From Dehalococcoidia bacterium (GTDB taxonomy: Bacteria; Chloroflexota; Dehalococcoidia; GIF9; JAUXIO01): a stretch of 53,489 nt of DNA. The position numbers and the translations under genes are program-made. This document shows positions 3,563 through 15,138 of this stretch, piece by piece. The DNA is taken from the NCBI GenBank assembly GCA_030620975.1, contig JAUXIO010000003.1:1-53489 (forward strand), written 5' to 3'. The notes under the pieces are model-generated. The model did no database searches. It was not told the DNA's origin and worked only from the letters and a program-made list of their open reading frames with translations. Numbering within the stretch: the stretch's first letter is position 1; each line of letters opens with the position of its first letter.

Positions 3563-6109
3563 CTAGGGCAAGCTTGAATCACCCTTATAAATTCCAGTCT
3601 GTTCTCGCAGACATTCATAGAGGGCTTTCCCCTGTTCTTCTAAAATACCGTTTACCTGCCTTAATGCCCTCATATAATCAGAGAATTCCCTCCCCTCTAT
3701 GGCAACATTATAATCTTGAGCTAACCCTCCTACGATGGAGATCATTTCTTCCCTCAACAGTTCATAGAGTTCTTTTCCTTTAATATGGGAAAGTGCTCTG
3801 GCCAAAGCCAAAGATACAGACAAAATGGCATTCATTCCCAGAGTTCCTTTTCTCTGCATTACCAGGACCTGAGCCTCCTCTTTTGCTTCGGGAGATAATT
3901 TTCCGTTTTGAACGGCAGCTTCCCTCTCTAGATCAAGAAGAGTCTTATCTATATCTTTCAACGATAAACTAGCCAGATCTTTCCCCTCAAACTTGGGCGC
4001 AATTATTTTCACAACGTTCTCTGCGGCATTTAAGCAGCCTTTCCCTTCGTATCTCTCGGATTTGATAAAAAGTTGGATTAATTTCTCATCCCCAGTTTCC
4101 CTTACTTGGGATTCACTTACTCCTTTCTTGAACTCATAAGTGGCTTCCTCCACCTTTTGGAACAAATCCGAATGTCTATCTGCAACCTCTTTATATTCTG
4201 CGTATTCAATTAGAGAATCTATCAGGTGTATGGCTTCCCCAGCTCCGGCAGAAGTTCCTAAAGGAGTAGCTCCCCTCTTTTCCAAAATCAACTGCGTTTC
4301 GGGCGAATATACTTGCACCTCTACACCCACGGTAGGTATGCCAGCATTGGTAGGTTCTTCACAAGAAGTAAAATTCCTTATGATGGCCTTTGCTCCTTCC
4401 TTAAGCGAAGTAAGGGCAATGCCTCTTTCCAATTTGTTCATTAAATCGAGAACTTTCTGATATTTAACTAACCTTTCCGTGTTTGCTCCTCCACCCGCTT
4501 TCAAGCCCAAGGCATTGACCGCCAAAGCGATTTGAGCTTCCATATCGTCATTGGGTGATTTGGAGCGGTGAGAGACCACCAATTCCAAATTCTTGCCTAG
4601 AGCCACCAGCACGGCCAGGATCGTCTCATATAAAGTTCCTATTTGATTGGCTTTAATTAAAGCGGTGTTGATTAGGTGTCGGGAGGCAGACATCTCAATC
4701 GTCTTATCATTGGTAGTTACCAAGTCGTCACCAATCACGAGAATTCTATCTCCCAATTCTTCTAAGAGCATCTGCCAGCCCTGGTAGTCGTCCTCAGCAA
4801 AGCCGTCCTCGATAGAGATTATGGGTATCTCATACTCTTGAATGGCTTTCCTATATATTTCCAAAACCTCGTCCCTGCTGAGGATAACCCTGGCCTTATC
4901 TCTCCAGAACAAATATGTACCCACGCTGTCGGGCATGTTGTACTCTTCTCGATAAGCATTCTGTAATTCACTCATCGCGGGATCCAAGGCAATAGCTATA
5001 TCTACTCCCGGTTTATAGCCACATTCCTCTATAGACTGCTTCATCATCGTCCATAATCTTAGTTCAGGTAAAGGATAATCTCCCTTTTCAATGTAAGGAG
5101 CAAGACCTCCTTCCAAGCCTATTCCCATTACGCGGCAACCCTCTCCCTTCTCAATAATCTCCTTTAGACGATTCTGGAGCTTAACCGTCATCTCCTGAGC
5201 CTCTTCGTAATTTGGAGCTCCCAAAATTACGAACATTCCCTCCTGCATGCTTATGTTCGATTCGGGATATTCCTTCTCAGTATGTCTTCCCCCCATGCCG
5301 CAGTTCCTGAATTGCCAAGGGGCTTCCACTCTCCCCAAAGAAGGATGGACTGCTTTCTGAATTCTTTCCTCAAGCATCCGCTGCTTTACGCCCTGGGAGG
5401 CCTGGTACCAATCAGATACCTTTTCTACCATTTCGGCTTTATATTTTGCCTTTTCCTCCCTCTCTCTAAATTTCCTATATTTCCCGGGGTCGGCGATGAA
5501 AAAGTCTAGTAGAGTGACTAGTCCTATTCCTAAACATAATCTCCCTATGTACAGACTTGGTATATAGTTAAAGTGCAAACCGAAGTAGAGGAGCATTATG
5601 GCCAAGGGCAAGGCAAACAAACAAGCATCCCTGCTAGCCTTTGGTCCATTGGCAGCTACTGCCAGATTGTAAGGAGCATCAGGATAGTAATTTAGGCCTT
5701 CCCTCTTTATTCCCAAGGCCTTACCATAAGGAATGAGGATAAACATCTTAGCGTAGTAAAAAATCCTCTTCACAAGGCTCTGATTAAATTTTTGGTTGAA
5801 TCCCTCTTGAGCGCTTCGATTCAAAGCATTGATCCTGCCTGCCTCTAGGAAGTGTCCCATTTCATGGATGGCAATCCCAGCATGGAAGCTTATATACATA
5901 AATAAGGCGGAGATAAAGGTCTCAGGACTTACGAAGATGAATTTTAAGACCTCCGTCTTAAAGACATGGGCTAAGGGCAAAGATAAAACTGAGGAGATGA
6001 AAGCAACATGGAAGGAGACCAAAATATGGTTGGCTAGTACCCAACCTTTTTCTAGGCGAGCGCCATCTTTATATCCTGCTTCCAATTTCTTGTAATTGGG
6101 GGGCTTCAT
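3563..6109 (-). CDS. Fusion protein: N-terminal membrane HExxH (M50-like) metalloprotease domain plus circularly permuted enolase (C-terminal barrel then N-terminal domain)
   Basis: HEMGH at aa 82-86 in a hydrophobic segment; aa ~265-560 carry enolase barrel motifs (GGRHTEK, MQEGMF, GLEGGLAP, ALDPAMSE, SIEDGFAEDD, IGDDLVTTN, LIKANQIG, VSHRSKS, GLKAGGGANTERLVKYQ); aa ~590-785 carry enolase N-domain motifs (PTVGVEVQV, PLGTSAGAGEAI, GKGCLNAAENV, GMNAILSVSLALARA, LYELL). Confidence 0.88.
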   Translation of the reverse strand: MKPPNYKKLEAGYKDGARLEKGWVLANHILVSFHVAFISSVLSLPLAHVFKTEVLKFIFVSPETFISALFMYISFHAGIAIHEMGHFLEAGRINALNRSAQEGFNQKFNQSLVKRIFYYAKMFILIPYGKALGIKREGLNYYPDAPYNLAVAANGPKASRDACLFALPLAIMLLYFGLHFNYIPSLYIGRLCLGIGLVTLLDFFIADPGKYRKFREREEKAKYKAEMVEKVSDWYQASQGVKQRMLEERIQKAVHPSLGRVEAPWQFRNCGMGGRHTEKEYPESNISMQEGMFVILGAPNYEEAQEMTVKLQNRLKEIIEKGEGCRVMGIGLEGGLAPYIEKGDYPLPELRLWTMMKQSIEECGYKPGVDIAIALDPAMSELQNAYREEYNMPDSVGTYLFWRDKARVILSRDEVLEIYRKAIQEYEIPIISIEDGFAEDDYQGWQMLLEELGDRILVIGDDLVTTNDKTIEMSASRHLINTALIKANQIGTLYETILAVLVALGKNLELVVSHRSKSPNDDMEAQIALAVNALGLKAGGGANTERLVKYQKVLDLMNKLERGIALTSLKEGAKAIIRNFTSCEEPTNAGIPTVGVEVQVYSPETQLILEKRGATPLGTSAGAGEAIHLIDSLIEYAEYKEVADRHSDLFQKVEEATYEFKKGVSESQVRETGDEKLIQLFIKSERYEGKGCLNAAENVVKIIAPKFEGKDLASLSLKDIDKTLLDLEREAAVQNGKLSPEAKEEAQVLVMQRKGTLGMNAILSVSLALARALSHIKGKELYELLREEMISIVGGLAQDYNVAIEGREFSDYMRALRQVNGILEEQGKALYECLREQTGIYKGDSSLP

Positions 6110-6185: not shown

Positions 6186-6941
6186 TCAAAGCTTCAGCTT
6201 GTCAGCTATTTCCCTTACCCCCAGTTGAAGAGGGGAATCTGGAGGTAACTGGATTAGAGGAATCCCCTTCACTTCCAAGTCAGCAAGGTTTGGATCCTCG
6301 AGAATGGTGGCGATGAGATGAAGCCCAAGACCATCAGCAGCCTCCTTTATTTCCCGAGGAGGCCCGCCTTTAACTCGGTTAATCATTAAATAAACCCCCC
6401 CAACCTTAGTTCTCAACTCTTGAATAAGTTCTTTCATGGCTGCAGCAGCAGTAATACCCCGCACCGTGGGGTCAGAAATGGTGAGCAAGACATCTATGTC
6501 TCCCGCCGTCTGCCGACTGATATGCTCCATGCCAGCTTCGCAATCAATGACCACATAGTCATAATTCCGAGTGAGGCGACCTATAGAAAGACGAAGCATG
6601 TGATTGGCAGCACAGTAACAGCCCGGTCCCTCAGGGCGCCCCATTGTTAACAGGTCGACCTTATCCGATTCAACCAGGGTTGCTCTTATTCTTCCCTGCA
6701 GAATGTCTTGCATAGGCACCCCGGTAGGAAGGCTCTGCTTTTGAATATCTTTGACCATCTCCTCACGCACTCCACCCACGGTGCCTTCAAGTGGCAGACC
6801 CAAAGCCAGATTAAGATTGGCACTAGGGTCGGCATCAACGGCTAGAACTATGCCCTTCTGCGAAAGCAAGTCTATAAGCAAGGCGGCAATTATGGTCTTC
6901 CCAACACCACCTTTCCCAGCAATAGCAATCGCGGTCGTCAT
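6186..6941 (-). CDS. cooC: CooC/AcsF-type nickel-insertion P-loop ATPase (CODH/ACS maturation)
   Basis: GKGGVGKT deviant Walker A, DADPSANLNLALG, CYCAANHMLR, VVIDCEAGMEHISR. Confidence 0.9.
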   Translation of the reverse strand: MTTAIAIAGKGGVGKTIIAALLIDLLSQKGIVLAVDADPSANLNLALGLPLEGTVGGVREEMVKDIQKQSLPTGVPMQDILQGRIRATLVESDKVDLLTMGRPEGPGCYCAANHMLRLSIGRLTRNYDYVVIDCEAGMEHISRQTAGDIDVLLTISDPTVRGITAAAAMKELIQELRTKVGGVYLMINRVKGGPPREIKEAADGLGLHLIATILEDPNLADLEVKGIPLIQLPPDSPLQLGVREIADKLKL

Positions 6942-6949
6942 TTAGGCGC

Positions 6950-8863
6950 TTAGCCTCCAGCTTCCTTAGGGCTACTTGCCTCCGATGGAGGCAGTAAACT
7001 TATCGGCGATAGCTTTATGACGGCACTGTACTCAGAGGGACACATCTCAAGGCAGGTGCCACACTTAGTGCATTTGCTCTGGTCGATGACTTTTATCCCC
7101 TTTTCATTACTGGTGATGGCTTTAGGTGAGCAGGCCAAAATGCAATGCTCGCAGGCCCTGTCACACTTCTCGGGAAGAATATAATAAGCAGTAAGCTCCT
7201 TACACACCAAAGCGGGACAGCGCTTCTCGCGAATATGGGCCTCATACTCATCGCGAAAATAGCGAATGGTAGTTAGAACTGGATTGGGCGCAGTTTTACC
7301 CAAGTTACACAGCGAGCCCATCTTAATGTCCTCGGCCAACTCAAAGAGCAAATCGATGTCTTCAATTCTGCCCTTGCCGGCGGCAATGCCTTCCAAAATA
7401 TCCAGCATCTGCTTTGTGCCCAAACGACACAAAGTGCACTTACCACAAGACTCTTTCTGAATGAAGTCGAGGAAAAAGCGGGCGGTATCCACCATACAGT
7501 TGTCCTCATCCATAACAATCATGCCCCCCGAACCCATCATTACCCCCACCTCAATCAGCGAGTCAAAATCGACTGGGGTATCCAGCAAACTCTCAGGCAG
7601 ACAACCGCCCGATGGTCCACCAATTTGCACCGCTTTCAAAGCCTTACCCTCAGGTACGCCGCCACCGATATCAAAAATGAGCTCACGCAAAGTTGTACCC
7701 ATGGGCACTTCGGCCAAGCCGGTATTAACCAGCTTGCCAGCCAAAGCAAACACTGCCGTGCCTTTACTTCTCTCCGTGCCCATAGCAGAAAACCAATCTG
7801 CGCCGCAATTAATTATTAGCGGGATGTAAGCAAGGGTCTTCACATTATTTATCACGGTGGGCTTATCCCACAGTCCAGCCTCCGCGGGATAAGGCGGTCT
7901 CGGTCTGGGAACGCTCCGCTTGCCCTCAATAGCCTGCATTAACGCCGTCTCCTCACCAGAGACGAAGGCGCCAGCACCCAGTGCCAACCTTATATGGAAA
8001 TTGAAACCGCTGCCCAAGATATTATCCCCCAAAAAGCCCAGCTCTTCCGCTTGCTTTAAGGCAATTCCCAAACGCTCAATAGCTAAGGGATACTCGGCGC
8101 GGATATAAATATAGCCCTGAGAGGCACCCAGCGCATAACCGCCGATGAGCATACCCTCAAGAACCTCATGCGGGTCACTCTCCAAAATTACCCGGTCCAT
8201 AAAAGCACCAGGGTCTCCCTCATCGGCATTGCAAATCACATATTTGGGCTCAACCAAGGCATTGCGGCAGACCTGCCACTTCTCCCCGGTGGGAAAGCCA
8301 GCACCACCCCGACCACGCAACCCCGACCTTTTTACCTCCTCAATTACCTCTCCTTGGGGCATTCTCAAGGCTTTAACCAAACCCGCATAGCCGCCGCTGG
8401 CAATATAATGGTTTATATCCTCTGGGTTAACATAGCCGCAATGGCGCAAGAGCAGGCGTCTTTCGCGCTCAAACCTGAGTAACTCTGGAATATAAACGGC
8501 TTCGCCATCACCGCCTTCGACAGCCCCCAAAGCCAATTCCAGACAGGGGTCATCACCCAGAATATAACCTTCAACCAAGCGAGAAACAACTTCGGGGGTA
8601 ACCTTACCATAGCAAACGCGGAAGGAATCCGGCTTAATTATTACTACCAGGGGCTCGGCATAGCAAAGTCCCATGCAGCCAACTTGGGTGATATTAGCCT
8701 CGGCATTTTGCCGCCGAAGTTCCTCTCTGAAGGCTTCAACTACAGCTAACGCTCCGGCAGCTCTGCCACAGGTGGCGGTGCCGATAAGAATATTGGGCAC
8801 TTCGCCATGGTAAAGGGACTTCCATTGTGATACCGCTCGACTTTTAATTTGCTCAAAGGTCAC
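6950..8863 (-). CDS. NuoF/HydB-like NADH-binding flavoprotein subunit with N-terminal thioredoxin-like 2Fe-2S domain and C-terminal 4Fe-4S domain
   Basis: RGRGGAGFPTGEKW, CNADEGDPGAFMDR, SGEETALM, ESCGKCTLCRLGT, C-terminal CTKCGTCLEMCP. Confidence 0.92.
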   Translation of the reverse strand: MTFEQIKSRAVSQWKSLYHGEVPNILIGTATCGRAAGALAVVEAFREELRRQNAEANITQVGCMGLCYAEPLVVIIKPDSFRVCYGKVTPEVVSRLVEGYILGDDPCLELALGAVEGGDGEAVYIPELLRFERERRLLLRHCGYVNPEDINHYIASGGYAGLVKALRMPQGEVIEEVKRSGLRGRGGAGFPTGEKWQVCRNALVEPKYVICNADEGDPGAFMDRVILESDPHEVLEGMLIGGYALGASQGYIYIRAEYPLAIERLGIALKQAEELGFLGDNILGSGFNFHIRLALGAGAFVSGEETALMQAIEGKRSVPRPRPPYPAEAGLWDKPTVINNVKTLAYIPLIINCGADWFSAMGTERSKGTAVFALAGKLVNTGLAEVPMGTTLRELIFDIGGGVPEGKALKAVQIGGPSGGCLPESLLDTPVDFDSLIEVGVMMGSGGMIVMDEDNCMVDTARFFLDFIQKESCGKCTLCRLGTKQMLDILEGIAAGKGRIEDIDLLFELAEDIKMGSLCNLGKTAPNPVLTTIRYFRDEYEAHIREKRCPALVCKELTAYYILPEKCDRACEHCILACSPKAITSNEKGIKVIDQSKCTKCGTCLEMCPSEYSAVIKLSPISLLPPSEASSPKEAGG

Positions 8864-8868
8864 TAAAG

Positions 8869-9354
8869 TTAATCGCCCTTGTTTGCTTCTTGAATTTCAG
8901 ACTTTATGGTCGTCAGAACTTCCACCACCTTCCAGGGCGTCATTTTGGGGTAAACGGCATCACCAATTACCATTGCCGGAGCTATAGCACAGCAACCAAT
9001 GCAGGCTACCCTATCCAGGCTGAACTCGCCATCGGAAGTGAGCCCTCCCAAATCAACATCCAATTCCCTTTGCACCGCCTCCAGAACAAGCTCGCCACCG
9101 CTTAAATGACAAGCAGTCCCCATACATACTTTGATAGGGCGCCTTCCCAGAGGGGTAATCCGAAATTGGTTGTAGAAAGTAGCCACGCTGTAAACTAAAC
9201 TTTCTGGAATCTGCAAAAATTTAGCAACGCCGAGCATTGCCTCCTTAGGAAGATAGCCAAACTCAGCTTGAACTTCCTGAAGGATGGCAATCAAATCACC
9301 TCGACCGTCTCCCTGCGCCCTCAGAATCCTGGTTAATCCTTCTGCTACTTCCAC
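8869..9354 (-). CDS. NuoE/HydA-gamma-like 2Fe-2S thioredoxin-like subunit
   Basis: CMGTACHLSGG, VACIGCCAIAPAMVI; adjacent to nuoF-like gene. Confidence 0.92.
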   Translation of the reverse strand: MEVAEGLTRILRAQGDGRGDLIAILQEVQAEFGYLPKEAMLGVAKFLQIPESLVYSVATFYNQFRITPLGRRPIKVCMGTACHLSGGELVLEAVQRELDVDLGGLTSDGEFSLDRVACIGCCAIAPAMVIGDAVYPKMTPWKVVEVLTTIKSEIQEANKGD

Positions 9355-10709
9355 TTCTTTACAAGCTCCGGTAGAAAGGCTGGTATATCACTGGCTTCTC
9401 TGGGACCTACTATAACCTCCCAGCCTGACATGGCTTCCTCAAGTTCACCTCTGATTCTGGCTACTTTCCCCGGAATAACTAATCGCCTGTGGTTCACCTT
9501 GGCCTCAATGCCACATCTCTTAATAAATGGTTCAATGGTATCGGCGGAAAACTTGCCAGCCGCCCAAGCGGTGACCACACCAAGCCCTTCCGAATTCTTC
9601 ACGCAAAGCCATGACGGAACCTTACTTGCTTCCGTCTCCGAGGAGACGATGAAGTAAGTTAATGACCAGTTCGTAGTAAGTAGAACCGGAGACTGCTCAT
9701 TGGGTTCATTTATCTCATAGACCTTCTCCTCTACTGCCAGAGGCATCCGAGGGTCAGTATAAATATTGAGCCGCTGAACTAGCAGCGGCAGCAAAGAATA
9801 TTGGTCCGCATTGGAAATAACGATAATTCCCGCATACTTAATTATAAATACCGAGGCTGCAACAAATTCCTTCAGTTCCCCTTTAGTCATAAAACAGGGG
9901 AGGGCGATAGTGGGATAACCAAGGGGTCTAAATTTCTGCTTCAAGGCCGCTCTGCGCAGCAACGTCTGAGCCGCTATAGCCTCACGAAGGTTTCCGGAAC
10001 CGGGATCCAGAACTATCTCCTCAATGCCAGCTTCTTTCAATTTGAGGGTAAGCGGGACAAGCTGCTCTACAGTCTCTGCCCTAACCCCCACCGGCGTCGG
10101 TGATTGTTTAATTCGGGGAATAGCCCGGTCAATATTTTCTTCGGTTATGGGGTAGATTAATGGTTTTCTAGAGGCATATATGTCTCTCGCCTCAAAAAGG
10201 GCATCTAAATCGTCCGAGATTAAAACAACTCCGAGGTCAGTGGCTTCATAGGCCCTCCTCACCAAAGCCTCAAACTTAGACTTATCCCCGGATTCAAAGT
10301 ACAAAGCTAGAAGATCCGCCTTGAGGGTCAAGCCCACCCTATCAAACCGCAGCTCTCTTACTTTGTTTATCTTTCGCTCAATGCTCGCCTCAGTCTCCTC
10401 ATCAGACACGAGCAGGGCAATGCCAGGCTGATGAATGAAAGTCTTTTCGTGCCTATACAGCACCTCTTCATTGCCAATTTGCAGGGCATTTTCACCGTGC
10501 CCTATGGTCACCAAGTTAATCGGAGGTGCCAAGGCATCAGCCAGTTCAGCTTTAACCTGGGGGGAAATATAGGGACACTTATCAAGAGATATGCCTCCCG
10601 AAGCTAGCTTCATGGCGAAAGCAAAACAGGTGGGCAAGCCGCATTCCCTGCAGTTCTTCTTACCCCCCTCGGGTAACTTCTTTACAATATCAGTCCCTTT
10701 GATTGACAT
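9345..10709 (-). CDS. acsC: Corrinoid iron-sulfur protein large subunit (CdhE/AcsC)
   Basis: N-terminal NCRECGLPTCFAFAMKLASGGISLDKCPY Fe-S motif; operon context. Confidence 0.93.
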   Translation of the reverse strand: MSIKGTDIVKKLPEGGKKNCRECGLPTCFAFAMKLASGGISLDKCPYISPQVKAELADALAPPINLVTIGHGENALQIGNEEVLYRHEKTFIHQPGIALLVSDEETEASIERKINKVRELRFDRVGLTLKADLLALYFESGDKSKFEALVRRAYEATDLGVVLISDDLDALFEARDIYASRKPLIYPITEENIDRAIPRIKQSPTPVGVRAETVEQLVPLTLKLKEAGIEEIVLDPGSGNLREAIAAQTLLRRAALKQKFRPLGYPTIALPCFMTKGELKEFVAASVFIIKYAGIIVISNADQYSLLPLLVQRLNIYTDPRMPLAVEEKVYEINEPNEQSPVLLTTNWSLTYFIVSSETEASKVPSWLCVKNSEGLGVVTAWAAGKFSADTIEPFIKRCGIEAKVNHRRLVIPGKVARIRGELEEAMSGWEVIVGPREASDIPAFLPELVKKWK

Positions 10710-10733: not shown

Positions 10734-11957
10734 CTATGGCAACTCCACTTCGCCTCTCAGCCAAGGGTGTCCCACCTTATCCACAAACTCAACGAGCTCA
10801 TCGGTATTGGTAGCATTTTCTTCCGTGGCTATTTTGTCATATAAATTTTCTGGAATAACATCCCTATATCTTTCTTTTATCTCCTTGGGCATCCACATCA
10901 CCCGGTATAGACCACCGTCCGCCCTCAGGAACTTGGGAGAGCGCATGTATTCTAATGCCATTCCCAAAGAGCCCTCTGCCTGCCTGCCGCCGCCGGTATT
11001 CCCCGCCATAGTAGAAAAAGAAGCTCCAATTGGCGTCTTACCAGCAAAGTCTCTGTGCACTACCCCAAATCCATCTACTTCGGGAATGTAAAAACAAATA
11101 GACTGGAAGCAACCACAAGAAGTATGAGGATGCTCAAAGGCGCTATGAAGATAAACTCGGTTATACTGACCTAATGACCTTTCAGCAATTACCTGATTTG
11201 CCCCGCTGTATTCCCCTTTTACCGGGTCCAAAAGCTCACCCTTGGGTACCTCAAAAATGGGGCCCTCAGGGTCAAGTTGATAAGCAGCTCTACCATCAAA
11301 CCAATTTATAGCCCCACATAATGAAAGGCGTTCTGGAGTTATAATGCAGGCATGAGTGGGCGCAAAACTCTGACACAGCACACAGCCATAAAACTGGTCT
11401 ACATCCTCCTCCCTCAAGCCCTTCAGCCTCTCATCCCTGGCATGGTAAACTTCCAAAGCATGGGGTAGAAGTTCCTGCACACGCTTTTCATCGGTAATGA
11501 AGGTTATGGCAACTCTCTCGATGACTGATAACTCCGAGGTATAAAGAAAAATGAGAATTTTGCCGAAGTCCCTTAAAGATTTTAGCCCCATTTTATAAGC
11601 ATCTTTACTTAATCTGACCCAGGCATCTTCTCTCTGATTCATATGGTAAAGTCCTTGGATATAATTGGTATACATATGTATTCTTCTCTCAATTACCGGC
11701 TCTGTTTCCTTCTCCAGCCTCTCACCGGCGACATCAATCAAAATGGCTAAAGGATAGCTACCTCCCTCCTCCAATTCAAATATGTCGGGGCCGATAACCT
11801 CTATTCTTCCATGCTCAACTTCAGCAGGGCTATTCAAGGTTACCAACTCAAACTTGCTTTTCGCTTTCGGTCCACCAAACTCAACGTACAAGTCCGCTTT
11901 CCTTATCACATCACCTTCATATTGAGGTCCAATATCCACCGGAAAAGCTTCTGTCAT
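10734..11957 (-). CDS. acsB: Acetyl-CoA synthase, CdhC-type (A-cluster domain without the N-terminal AcsB domain)
   Basis: YGCVLCQSFAPTHACIITPERLSLCGA and SCGCFQSI A-cluster motifs; IRKADLYVEFGG start region; begins about where the N-terminal domain of full-length bacterial AcsB ends. Confidence 0.93.
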   Translation of the reverse strand: MTEAFPVDIGPQYEGDVIRKADLYVEFGGPKAKSKFELVTLNSPAEVEHGRIEVIGPDIFELEEGGSYPLAILIDVAGERLEKETEPVIERRIHMYTNYIQGLYHMNQREDAWVRLSKDAYKMGLKSLRDFGKILIFLYTSELSVIERVAITFITDEKRVQELLPHALEVYHARDERLKGLREEDVDQFYGCVLCQSFAPTHACIITPERLSLCGAINWFDGRAAYQLDPEGPIFEVPKGELLDPVKGEYSGANQVIAERSLGQYNRVYLHSAFEHPHTSCGCFQSICFYIPEVDGFGVVHRDFAGKTPIGASFSTMAGNTGGGRQAEGSLGMALEYMRSPKFLRADGGLYRVMWMPKEIKERYRDVIPENLYDKIATEENATNTDELVEFVDKVGHPWLRGEVELP

Positions 11958-12021: not shown

Positions 12022-13359
12022 TTAGTGTACTACATCTTCCAATGACGCCTTGGATGGATAGGTGCCGATCAAAGTGGGCAGGCTTAAAGTCGGTTTTTCT
12101 TCCCAACCCACAGTAGGGAGGTAACTCATTACTTCCTTCTTAAAGAAGATGGGTATATCTGCAGTTCTCCTGACATATAAGTGGAGGTCATCGGGAAGAC
12201 CCTCAGCATATCGCTTATATAAAGAGATATAATGATTTAACTTTATCTGCCTTCCCTGCGGAGTATCATTCTTCCTGATACACAACTTGGCAATGCTAAC
12301 CATCGCCTCTTCCTTCGAATTGGCGACGCAAGCCAGATGCTGTGGCGATGGCTCCTTGGTATCTATAAGCTCTCCCTTCCTTCCATCCATTACCATCCAA
12401 TCGCTATCTCGCTTCTGGCTTAGATAGAGTCTCGCATATTGAGCTGGGCCTACCATCGTTGGAATCCCGTATCTGCTAAATCCAGCGGCTATGGGCAAAG
12501 CCTCTTGGGGCAGAGTTCCCCAAGCCACCCCACAAGCGCCAACTCGGCTAAAAACATAATCAGCTATCACTTCATAATTTGCCCGAACTGGTAATGAAGC
12601 AAATATCATGGCTATTTTTATCAAGGCTGCGGAGATGCGGCAACTCAGCATATAGTCACCAATATTAATTACTCCACCAAGGTTCAATGCCGATGAATAT
12701 TTATCGGTGACTACTACAATATATTTTCTCCGCACCAAGTCCTGTACCATCTCAAGCACGGGTTTAATGTCCTCGGCTAAATCAGAGCAACCGACAAAAG
12801 CAACAATGCCCGGTATGGCACCCATTACCAGAGGCGCCCCAACCGACCTTATGGTCACATCCTGCACCGGGCCATGCTCAGTGCTCGGCTCAAATGTAGT
12901 CTGGGCAATGTCAGCTGCTTCCATAACTACGTGGTCCAACATCCCGGCGTGAAGTGCCCCGGATTCACACTCTAAAGAGCTCGCTTCCAAATTGACAGAC
13001 TCAAGCCGACTGCATTGCCCCTCTGCGTAGTCAATCACTTTGCTTAAGTCATTCAAGCTCTCCGGCCTGAGTCCCACAACGGTTTTTATGTTTGGAGCTT
13101 CCACATCAAGTTCGTGGTCCTCACCATGCTTATCAACATAATTGCCAACAACCCCCCTGGCATAATCAATATGGGTGCGAAGACCCCTGACGCAGATGTT
13201 CATTACCACCCCGGCTGATACCGACGGCGCATAAGATGGCCTATAGATTTTGAAAAGCCTCATGTCCCAATTTCTCAAATCTGGGATTTCAGGCATCGGT
13301 GTTGGCCCCACCGGTTCCCAGGCGTCAGTAGCTCTTATAATTTCAGCTTTATTATCCAC
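12022..13359 (-). CDS. CdhA-like protein with internal loss of metal-cluster segments (CO dehydrogenase alpha homologue, predicted catalytically inactive)
   Basis: Ends resemble archaeal CdhA (WDMRLFKIYRPSYAP; SGALHAGMLDHVVMEAADIAQ; GPVQDVTIRSVGAPLVMGAIPGIVAFVGC; NDTPQGRQIKLNHYISLYKRY); no ferredoxin-like CxxCxxCxxxC motif and no N-terminal CxxCCxC-type motif. Confidence 0.8.
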   Translation of the reverse strand: MDNKAEIIRATDAWEPVGPTPMPEIPDLRNWDMRLFKIYRPSYAPSVSAGVVMNICVRGLRTHIDYARGVVGNYVDKHGEDHELDVEAPNIKTVVGLRPESLNDLSKVIDYAEGQCSRLESVNLEASSLECESGALHAGMLDHVVMEAADIAQTTFEPSTEHGPVQDVTIRSVGAPLVMGAIPGIVAFVGCSDLAEDIKPVLEMVQDLVRRKYIVVVTDKYSSALNLGGVINIGDYMLSCRISAALIKIAMIFASLPVRANYEVIADYVFSRVGACGVAWGTLPQEALPIAAGFSRYGIPTMVGPAQYARLYLSQKRDSDWMVMDGRKGELIDTKEPSPQHLACVANSKEEAMVSIAKLCIRKNDTPQGRQIKLNHYISLYKRYAEGLPDDLHLYVRRTADIPIFFKKEVMSYLPTVGWEEKPTLSLPTLIGTYPSKASLEDVVH

Positions 13360-14272
13360 TTACTATCTCCTTCACCAACTTATAGCTTTCAGGATGTCTT
13401 AGAACCAAAATGTTAGCTCCAGCTAAAAGCAAAGAGGTAGCGGTTATCGCTTCCCAAAGTATCCCCTGCTCCCTACCCGCCTTCGCTTCCTTCGTCTTCC
13501 AGCATTCCCCGCCCAAGTTAGCAATAATGGGCATCTGCATCATCCCGTCTTTGAAAATTACGGCGAGCTGCTTTGCCCTCTCTATGATAGTAAAACTATA
13601 TTCCATACCATATCCCAACCCTGAACTTACAGGATCAATGACAATCTTATTCGCGGGAAAGGACTTACAAAGTTTTATATTTAGCTCCTTCATCAAATTG
13701 ATATCTACGGGGCTTTGAGCAATTACAGAATGCCCGTGTTCCAAAGCCACCTTACCTATCTCCTCATAGTTTTCCTTTAGCAGCGGGCCTAGAAGGAGAT
13801 TCTCGCTATCACACACCTCAGCAACTTTACTTAGTACCCGAACATCCGCCTTCTCATCTCCAGTGCCATAAACTATTAGGGGCACATCTAAAGCATCATT
13901 CACTTTCTTAACCAGCGCCGCTGCCTGCTCTGCAGACACAGCTTCCCCCGCCGGGTCAGTGCTCTCCAGTTGAAGGCAAATAGCCTCGGCACCAAAATCA
14001 TTCACGCATTTTCTTGCCCAGTTTACGGGGTCAGAGACCACTTCGCCGAAGGGCTCAAGCAGCCAATCAGGCCAGTCTGCTGGTTCCACATCATAGACTT
14101 CCAAGGCGAACCGCGGTGGATTGGCCACCGACCCCTCAAAAAGGTGAAGGGGAAGAATATTCTCCCCACCGATTTTTAAGGCTTTGTTTCCCCTCCCCAA
14201 CACCACCTCTCTAACTCTCCCAGCATAGACTTCAATTGGAGGATGATATATCATTCTTAGACCTCCAGCCAA
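13352..14272 (-). CDS. acsD: Corrinoid iron-sulfur protein small subunit (CdhD/AcsD)
   Basis: FALEVYDVEPADWPDWLLEPFGEVVSDPVNWARKCV; overlaps neighbouring acs genes; true start may be Met7 (MIYHPPIEVY). Confidence 0.92.
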   Translation of the reverse strand: MAGGLRMIYHPPIEVYAGRVREVVLGRGNKALKIGGENILPLHLFEGSVANPPRFALEVYDVEPADWPDWLLEPFGEVVSDPVNWARKCVNDFGAEAICLQLESTDPAGEAVSAEQAAALVKKVNDALDVPLIVYGTGDEKADVRVLSKVAEVCDSENLLLGPLLKENYEEIGKVALEHGHSVIAQSPVDINLMKELNIKLCKSFPANKIVIDPVSSGLGYGMEYSFTIIERAKQLAVIFKDGMMQMPIIANLGGECWKTKEAKAGREQGILWEAITATSLLLAGANILVLRHPESYKLVKEIVSG

Positions 14273-15138
14273 GCGTGGGAGTAAATCTCCCCTCCCATGA
14301 GCACTCTGGCGGTCTTCACATAATCTCGTTCCTTTTGTGAAAGACCGGAAAGTTCTAGATTCTCCTCATCCATTACCCCATAAATGAGGTCGACGATATT
14401 GGGCAATTCTCCCCTATTCAACCTTATAAGCTCCTCATCCAAGGCATCAGCAATTACAGAATACTGACCAGACTTGGCCAGCATTACCATATAAGTGCGA
14501 TTGAGAATCCCTCTGAGCGGCTGTGGCGTCCCATTAGATACATTTGAAAGTCCTATTACTGATTTAACGCCGGGCAGCAACTCAGGCAATATTTTAACGA
14601 ATTCCAAAACCTCCATAACCTGCCTTTGGTCAACGCTGACTGGCAGAAGGATGGGATCAACCCAAATGTCCTCGTTGGGAATACCCAGTTCATTGGCATA
14701 AGTAACCGTATCTATAATGCTCTCTATCCTTGAATCCACATCGGGAGGGCAGCCAATGTCGGTAAGCACTGAAATAACGACATCTATAGAATATTTTTTG
14801 GCCAAAGGCAGCATTAACTCTTTACTATCAGTCCTTCCTGAAGCTGAATTAAGCAAAGGCCTCTTTTTACAAAGTTTGAGGCCTGCCTCCATAGCTATAT
14901 GATTCATGGTATCCAAAGACAGAGGTAGATCGCTAGCCTCCTGAACCGTATTAACTAGCCACTGCATCACCTCCGCCGGGTTCTTGCGCGCTGGACCGAG
15001 GTTTAAATCTATATAGTCAACATCAACCTGAGCTAAAGCTAACTCTTGTATATGTTGAGGCTCTCTCTTATACATGGCCTCGCTAACCGCTTTAGAAATA
15101 ATGTGTATATTTTCACCAATGATAATCACTAAAATCAA
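14257..15138 (-). CDS. acsE: Methyltetrahydrofolate:corrinoid/iron-sulfur protein methyltransferase (AcsE), pterin-binding family
   Basis: IIGENIHIISKAV, YIDLNLGPARKNP, LDTMNHIAMEAGLK, VIGLSNVSNGTP. Confidence 0.92.
   Translation of the reverse strand: MILVIIIGENIHIISKAVSEAMYKREPQHIQELALAQVDVDYIDLNLGPARKNPAEVMQWLVNTVQEASDLPLSLDTMNHIAMEAGLKLCKKRPLLNSASGRTDSKELMLPLAKKYSIDVVISVLTDIGCPPDVDSRIESIIDTVTYANELGIPNEDIWVDPILLPVSVDQRQVMEVLEFVKILPELLPGVKSVIGLSNVSNGTPQPLRGILNRTYMVMLAKSGQYSVIADALDEELIRLNRGELPNIVDLIYGVMDEENLELSGLSQKERDYVKTARVLMGGEIYSHAWLEV

Follow-up and report, generated by a model that had tools for sequence, protein, structure and literature searches.

A CdhA-derived protein stripped of its metal-cluster segments is a candidate A1-like partner of ACS in a Dehalococcoidia bacterium

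Introduction

In the CODH/ACS complex of Methanosarcina, ACS is built without an A1 domain and CODH takes its place: Rossmann fold 2 of CODH packs on A3, its N-terminal helical domain matches the helices of A1, and its C-terminal extension contacts ACS (PMC11474084). Four residues of the Methanosarcina enzyme (MetCODH), Arg500, Leu504, Val507 and Phe601, make up the A-cluster contact and the CO alcove (PMC11474084), and an origin of A1 by duplication of CODH Rossmann fold 2 has been suggested (Biester et al. 2024, PMC11474084). The CODH-less ACS of Dehalococcoides is reported to cleave acetyl-CoA with release of CO (PMC6113397 and PMC7117926, both after Zhuang et al. 2014). A CODH-like protein of the CooS-V type has been shown to be without CODH activity (PMC9311411).

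Here we describe a locus in a 53,489-nucleotide stretch of Dehalococcoidia DNA (the window), in which the place of the catalytic CdhA gene is taken by a gene for a protein of only 445 aa. The source assembly is MAG-like (1.02 Mb, 71 contigs, 94.65% complete, with ~5% of the genome missing), and the named relatives retrieved by a genome scan are Dehalococcoidia/Chloroflexota MAGs.

Results

Segments lost and kept in the CdhA-derived protein

The open reading frame (12022..13359, minus strand) starts with GTG and runs without an internal stop. Its product matches the NCBIfam cdhA model TIGR00314 in four stretches (1.7e-117) with a score of 393 bits, well below the cut-off of 781 for a catalytic CdhA. 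Among PDB entries, the CdhA-type CODH 8riu_A matches best (3.5e-86), in three blocks split by missing segments, and the CdhA chains 9c0q and 3cf4 are likewise matched in separate blocks. The protein also carries the CdhA-specific N- and C-terminal segments and holds the CdhA position in the operon. Judged by its sequence, it is unmistakably derived from CdhA, the archaeal-type Ni-CODH alpha subunit, as an earlier note on this DNA had recognized.

Compared with the nearest intact relative (G002 CdhA, 775 aa, ~60% identity), the protein shows three in-frame deletions of 28, 255 and 19 aa; it also lacks 17 N-terminal residues and has three small gaps (6, 3 and 2 aa). The 28-aa loss follows aa 45 (join at 13224..13225, minus strand) and removes the stretch FCDLCCFCTYGKCDL...ACGIDMP of G002 with the B/D-cluster cysteines, a segment whose absence the earlier note had reported. 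At the second join, after aa 154 (12897..12898, minus strand), the 255 missing residues comprise Rossmann fold 1, with the His and Cys ligands of the C-cluster, and the E/F ferredoxin insert; a missing middle had been proposed before, yet it is shorter than the ~300 aa then estimated, and the join lies close to but not within aa 155-163. The third loss, after aa 218 (12705..12706, minus strand), takes away GCAAMAAATKKDAEGKTIY, which holds the SGC cysteine of the C-cluster. This position had been described as substituted together with GSC; GSC indeed reads GDY, whereas SGC is deleted.

While intact relatives have all six C-cluster ligands (one His, five Cys), a single one is left here, C191 (VGCSD), and an alignment showing retained ligands, which would have spoken against the earlier proposal, was thus not obtained. 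With the B/D segment and the E/F insert deleted as well, the residues left indicate that the protein cannot be a CODH. Eight cysteines remain, including C191, and the 445 aa show neither a new motif nor a new cluster of cysteines. What is kept, all on the minus strand, is the N-terminal tail (aa 1-45, WEPVGPTPMP...YAP; 13225..13359), the rest of the N-terminal helical domain as defined by alignment (aa 46-154; 12898..13224), Rossmann fold 2, the ACS-docking and CO-alcove fold (aa 155-330; 12370..12897; assigned from PMC11474084 and alignment), and the C-terminal extension (aa 331-445; 12025..12369).

Gene order and genome content

The operon, on the minus strand throughout, reads AcsE-CdhD-CdhA-CdhC-CdhE-NuoE-NuoF-CooC, with the stripped gene in the place of the catalytic CdhA. 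It comprises AcsE, the methyl-THF:CFeSP methyltransferase (14257..15138), the corrinoid FeS protein subunits CdhD (small, 13352..14272) and CdhE (large, 9345..10709), the partner subunit CdhC (ACS A2-A3, 407 aa, 10734..11957), operon-conserved NuoE-like (8869..9354) and NuoF-like (6950..8863) subunits, and a CooC/AcsF-like P-loop ATPase of the Ni-maturation type by inferred function (6186..6941). The gene had been called part of an overlapping operon; it does overlap CdhD by 8 nt (13352-13359), but a gap of 64 nt separates it from CdhC. CdhC keeps the A-cluster cysteines, with the motif CVLCQSFAPTHACIITPERLSLC that includes the alcove Phe (11316..11384, minus strand) and the Cys-Gly-Cys motif (11109..11117, minus strand). 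Nearly all relatives of the order share this gene arrangement, and their CdhA usually measures 765-850 aa and has every ligand.

A search of the 94.65% complete assembly for intact CODH genes, which the earlier note had proposed, returned the stripped CdhA as the only Prismane-family match and no CooS. Nor did any FTHFS score above the cut-off in the genome, in which one MTHFR-family protein was found. With neither FTHFS nor an intact CODH, the CO2-fixing Wood-Ljungdahl route looks impossible. ACS with its A-cluster, the corrinoid protein and the methyltransferase are intact, and the genome, at this completeness, thus has the gene content of a CODH-less ACS.

The NuoE/NuoF-like genes (window 6950-9354, minus strand) are retained at all syntenic loci, those with a catalytic CODH and those without, which makes a role for them at the C-cluster improbable; one locus (L073, G053) has an extra NuoE/NuoF pair between CdhA and CdhC. 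One record titled Dehalococcoides mccartyi (L002, DYGU01000004.1) carries an intact archaeal-type CdhA operon, yet Dehalococcoides-like genomes of the same order are without this operon, and the record is probably misnamed.

Residues matching the published A-cluster contacts and comparison with A1

Positions were mapped through an alignment with 9c0q. R171 (12847..12849, minus strand) corresponds to MetCODH Arg500, which hydrogen-bonds an A-cluster-coordinating Gly (PMC11474084), and is R in 37/37 intact CdhA and in 11/11 CdhA of a ligand-less clade described below. A175 and V178 (12826..12837, minus strand) correspond to Leu504 and Val507 of the CO alcove in helix alphaA, and F253 (12601..12603, minus strand) to Phe601 in helix alphaB. 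R171, V178 and F253 thus have the same letters as the published residues, and Ala, where MetCODH has Leu504, is found in all relatives of the order. The R, A and F positions are invariant across intact and ligand-less CdhA, and the V178 position is V or T. Because both the domains and the contact positions are kept, the retained protein corresponds to the ACS-facing part of CODH.

The same four residues match the A1 contact residues of the Moorella enzyme (Arg142, Ile146, Val149, Phe229), with Ala standing for Leu/Ile at A175 in this comparison, which was mapped through MetCODH. Homology to A1 of AcsB was detected over aa 59-329, contiguous across the join (6yua, 5.5e-8), and HHalign against a Dehalococcoides-like AcsB gave 308 columns across the join with a probability of 95. 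The protein is nevertheless encoded by a separate gene, not fused to A2-A3, and its nearest kin is CdhA, not AcsB. A single-chain AlphaFold2 model, built from 10 sequences, reached a pLDDT of 50, and since intact CdhA, modelled as a control from the same shallow set of sequences, came out equally poor (48), the model says nothing either way; Foldseek with this weak model placed CdhA at the top, followed by AcsB, and gave no significant match to CooS.

Sequence constraint on the shortened gene

Retention was scored at 221 columns invariant in 35 intact CdhA, with segments drawn after seeing the alignment. The N-terminal tail and C-terminal segments keep 51 of 53 such columns, compared with 112/168 elsewhere (Fisher p 4e-6). 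By segment, aa 1-46 keep 19/19 and aa 361-445 keep 32/34, with 17/17 in aa 361-400, and aa 218-240 and aa 47-60 keep 3/10 and 2/6, respectively. Rossmann fold 2 is 50-53% identical to that of intact f2 CdhA. Because synonymous sites of the gene are saturated (pS 0.76-0.79), only codon-position and site-pattern evidence was used: differences from G002 are concentrated at third positions (0.29/0.21/0.58). The end branch of the stripped CdhA measures 1.0, compared with 0.26-0.42 for CdhC, CdhE, CdhD and AcsE. An acceleration after the loss of catalysis with the interfaces held would fit both the uneven retention and the long branch, whereas neutral decay would fit the long branch only. No other 445-aa form was found among 85 genomes of the order or 396 sampled genomes of the class, which makes the gene a singleton.

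A second CdhA clade without C-cluster ligands

Scoring the ligands across the order showed intact CdhA in most genomes and, unexpectedly, in 11 relatives a CdhA in which each of the six C-cluster ligands is substituted (His to N/D/S/C; CC to GP or GA; and single Cys to N/S, G/S, D/E and G/D). These loci (L061 in G005, L058 in G016, L064 in G001, L084 in G024, and L088-L094) form a monophyletic clade with support of 100/100 and G048 as sister, and in 8/11 the ferredoxin insert is also deleted (633-705 aa). Within the clade, the dN/dS of CdhA (0.07-0.14) is close to that of CdhC, CdhD and CdhE of the same pairs. Identity over the region that is deleted in the 445-aa protein falls from 84% among intact f2 genomes to 59% in the clade, where it remains 92% for Rossmann fold 2a and 82% for the C-terminal part; as read from these identities, constraint is relaxed mainly where the 445-aa protein has its deletion. 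The CdhA of G048 (L075) has His replaced by Asn, CC by CS and a rearranged operon, possibly an early stage of ligand loss. G005 groups with family f4 and the other members with f2, which suggests an operon transfer.

A placement of the 445-aa protein within this clade was considered and rejected: the CdhA tree alone was borderline (AU p 0.056), and the four sister subunits (1454 columns) place the source genome far from the clade and reject the union (AU p about 1e-49). Provided that the genes of the operon are inherited together, there have been at least two losses of CODH in which the protein was kept. Apparently twice, a metalloenzyme has turned into a putative pseudoenzyme scaffold.

Eight genomes (seven of the clade and G048) encode second Prismane proteins, which are CooS-V-like with Cys to Glu at a C-cluster ligand (L100-L108, co-occurring with the ligand-less clade). 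Their CooS-V-like sequence and this substitution led us to discard these genes as a replacement of the lost CODH.

Discussion

We consider it probable, at roughly 0.7, that the stripped CdhA is a pseudo-CODH kept as a structural partner of CdhC, namely as a separate, A1-like subunit for ACS docking and CO capping in an ACS that has no CODH. Only one metal-ligand position has survived the deletions and the parts facing ACS have been spared, which favours such a docking role. That the protein is under selection for a structural or docking role without catalysis had been suggested in the earlier note, and this view gains support from several sides: the ligands are lost with operon and frame intact, the terminal segments are kept, as are the positions of the CO alcove and the A-cluster contact, and a second lineage without a C-cluster keeps CdhA under purifying selection. 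Points that weigh against our proposal are the fast evolution of the stripped CdhA, the low identity (50-53%) of its Rossmann fold 2, the single occurrence of the 445-aa form and the ~5% of the genome that is missing. According to this proposal, a catalytic CdhA ancestor would have lost the CODH reaction and its product would have been kept with the adjoining CdhC. The kept parts are those that replace A1 in the methanogen complex: the helical domain, Rossmann fold 2, with the CO alcove in its helices alphaA and alphaB, and the C-terminal extension. The stripped CdhA would dock to CdhC in a predicted complex, close the A-cluster over bound CO, gating CO without making or oxidising it, and open for methyl transfer with CdhD/CdhE; CdhC and stripped CdhA would together form a two-gene (A1 plus A2-A3) ACS without CODH. 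By analogy, the likeliest reaction would be acetyl-CoA + THF -> CH3-THF + CO + CoA as a one-carbon supply, the direction being presumed, and CO-dependent synthesis is the alternative direction. Somewhat less firmly, though still on balance, we favour the broader view that a CODH has here been reduced to a detached equivalent of A1 that evolved independently, and that a second lineage is partway on the same path.

Among described proteins, CdhA of the archaeal-type CODH/ACS (ACDS; M. thermophila 9c0q-t, M. barkeri 3cf4, Ca. Ethanoperedens 8riu) shares with the stripped protein its origin, operon place, N-terminal tail, helical domain, Rossmann fold 2, C-terminal extension and ACS-contact positions, but measures ~775 aa and has the B/D and E/F clusters and the complete C-cluster site. 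Like A1 of AcsB (Moorella, C. autoethanogenum 6yua, G003), the stripped protein, as far as can be told from its sequence, is metal-free and consists of a helical bundle followed by one Rossmann fold, with the alcove Arg/Val/Phe and a contiguous alignment of ~300 residues; unlike A1, it is encoded apart from A2-A3, keeps the CdhA-specific terminal segments, and scores 293 bits with CdhA and 33-36 bits with AcsB. D. mccartyi belongs to the same order and also has ACS, CFeSP and methyltransferase without CODH. Its type of AcsB has A1 fused, whereas here an archaeal-type CdhC stands with a separate stripped CdhA. Genomes of the order that look like Dehalococcoides have a fused AcsB (733-744 aa) and neither CdhA nor CooS, and two of them (G003, G031) show the reverse of the source genome, where an MTHFR-like gene is present and FTHFS is missing. 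CooS-V (clade D CODH-like, C. hydrogenoformans, 7b7q) is likewise a CODH scaffold without CODH activity, but a full-length one with a [4Fe-3S-nO] hybrid cluster, whereas the cluster domains are lost here.

The gene could be a degrading pseudogene, the remnant of a recently lost CODH that is open by chance. An end branch longer than those of the sister subunits and the restriction of the 445-aa form to one genome would agree with this, but three separate in-frame deletions fall on cluster segments with 445 codons left open, differences are concentrated at third codon positions, invariant columns are retained unevenly, and a parallel ligand-less clade persists at a dN/dS of about 0.1, which together make decay unlikely. 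We regard as slightly less probable still an accessory paralogue that receives CO from a catalytic CODH encoded elsewhere, on a missing contig or as a CooS. The incompleteness of the assembly leaves room for such a gene, and most relatives of the ~700-aa ligand-less clade have a CooS-like gene elsewhere; however, the assembly holds no Prismane or CooS match besides the stripped gene, which itself occupies the operon place of the catalytic one.

A new function in CO sensing, in electron transfer with NuoEF or at a new metal site formed by the remaining cysteines would be in keeping with the continued presence of NuoE and NuoF in the operon and with the eight cysteines, C191 among them. Since neither a motif nor a grouping of cysteines that is new turned up in the sequence, and since conservation lies on the ACS-contact segments, we think this very improbable. 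A chimeric or collapsed CdhA produced by assembly or binning might be suspected in a MAG-like assembly of 71 contigs, but the gene lies inside a 53-kb contig within a syntenic operon and has three separate in-frame joins. The retained parts are, moreover, only ~60% identical to any CdhA found, so that no known gene could have been misjoined, and an artefact has next to no likelihood.

If the stripped CdhA is indeed a docking subunit of CdhC, an A1-like domain would here have arisen from a complete CODH through deletions, re-enacting in a living lineage the duplication-and-stripping origin that has been proposed for A1 (PMC11474084), and CODH-less ACS would have a new two-gene architecture. The 11-species clade would represent an intermediate that has none of the ligands left but an intact ACS face, and in some members no ferredoxin insert, and the question of A1 origin would become testable with natural sequences. 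For annotation, cdhA genes of Dehalococcoidia cannot be read as a capacity for CO2-fixing Wood-Ljungdahl metabolism, and surveys that demand C-cluster ligands (e.g. PMC13240472) drop ligand-less CdhA. The stripped CdhA would also offer a clean case of a metalloenzyme turned pseudoenzyme scaffold; in a partial literature search, no previous description of CdhA without ligands was found for Dehalococcoidia.

Beside the operon, the window encodes an 848-aa protein (3563-6109, minus strand) with a weak M50-like membrane segment at its front, followed by an enolase C-terminal barrel (aa 272-561) and then an enolase N-terminal domain (aa 590-730). This domain order points to a fusion with an apparently circularly permuted enolase. 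No other protein of the genome matches enolase, and relatives of the order have ordinary enolases of ~440 aa.
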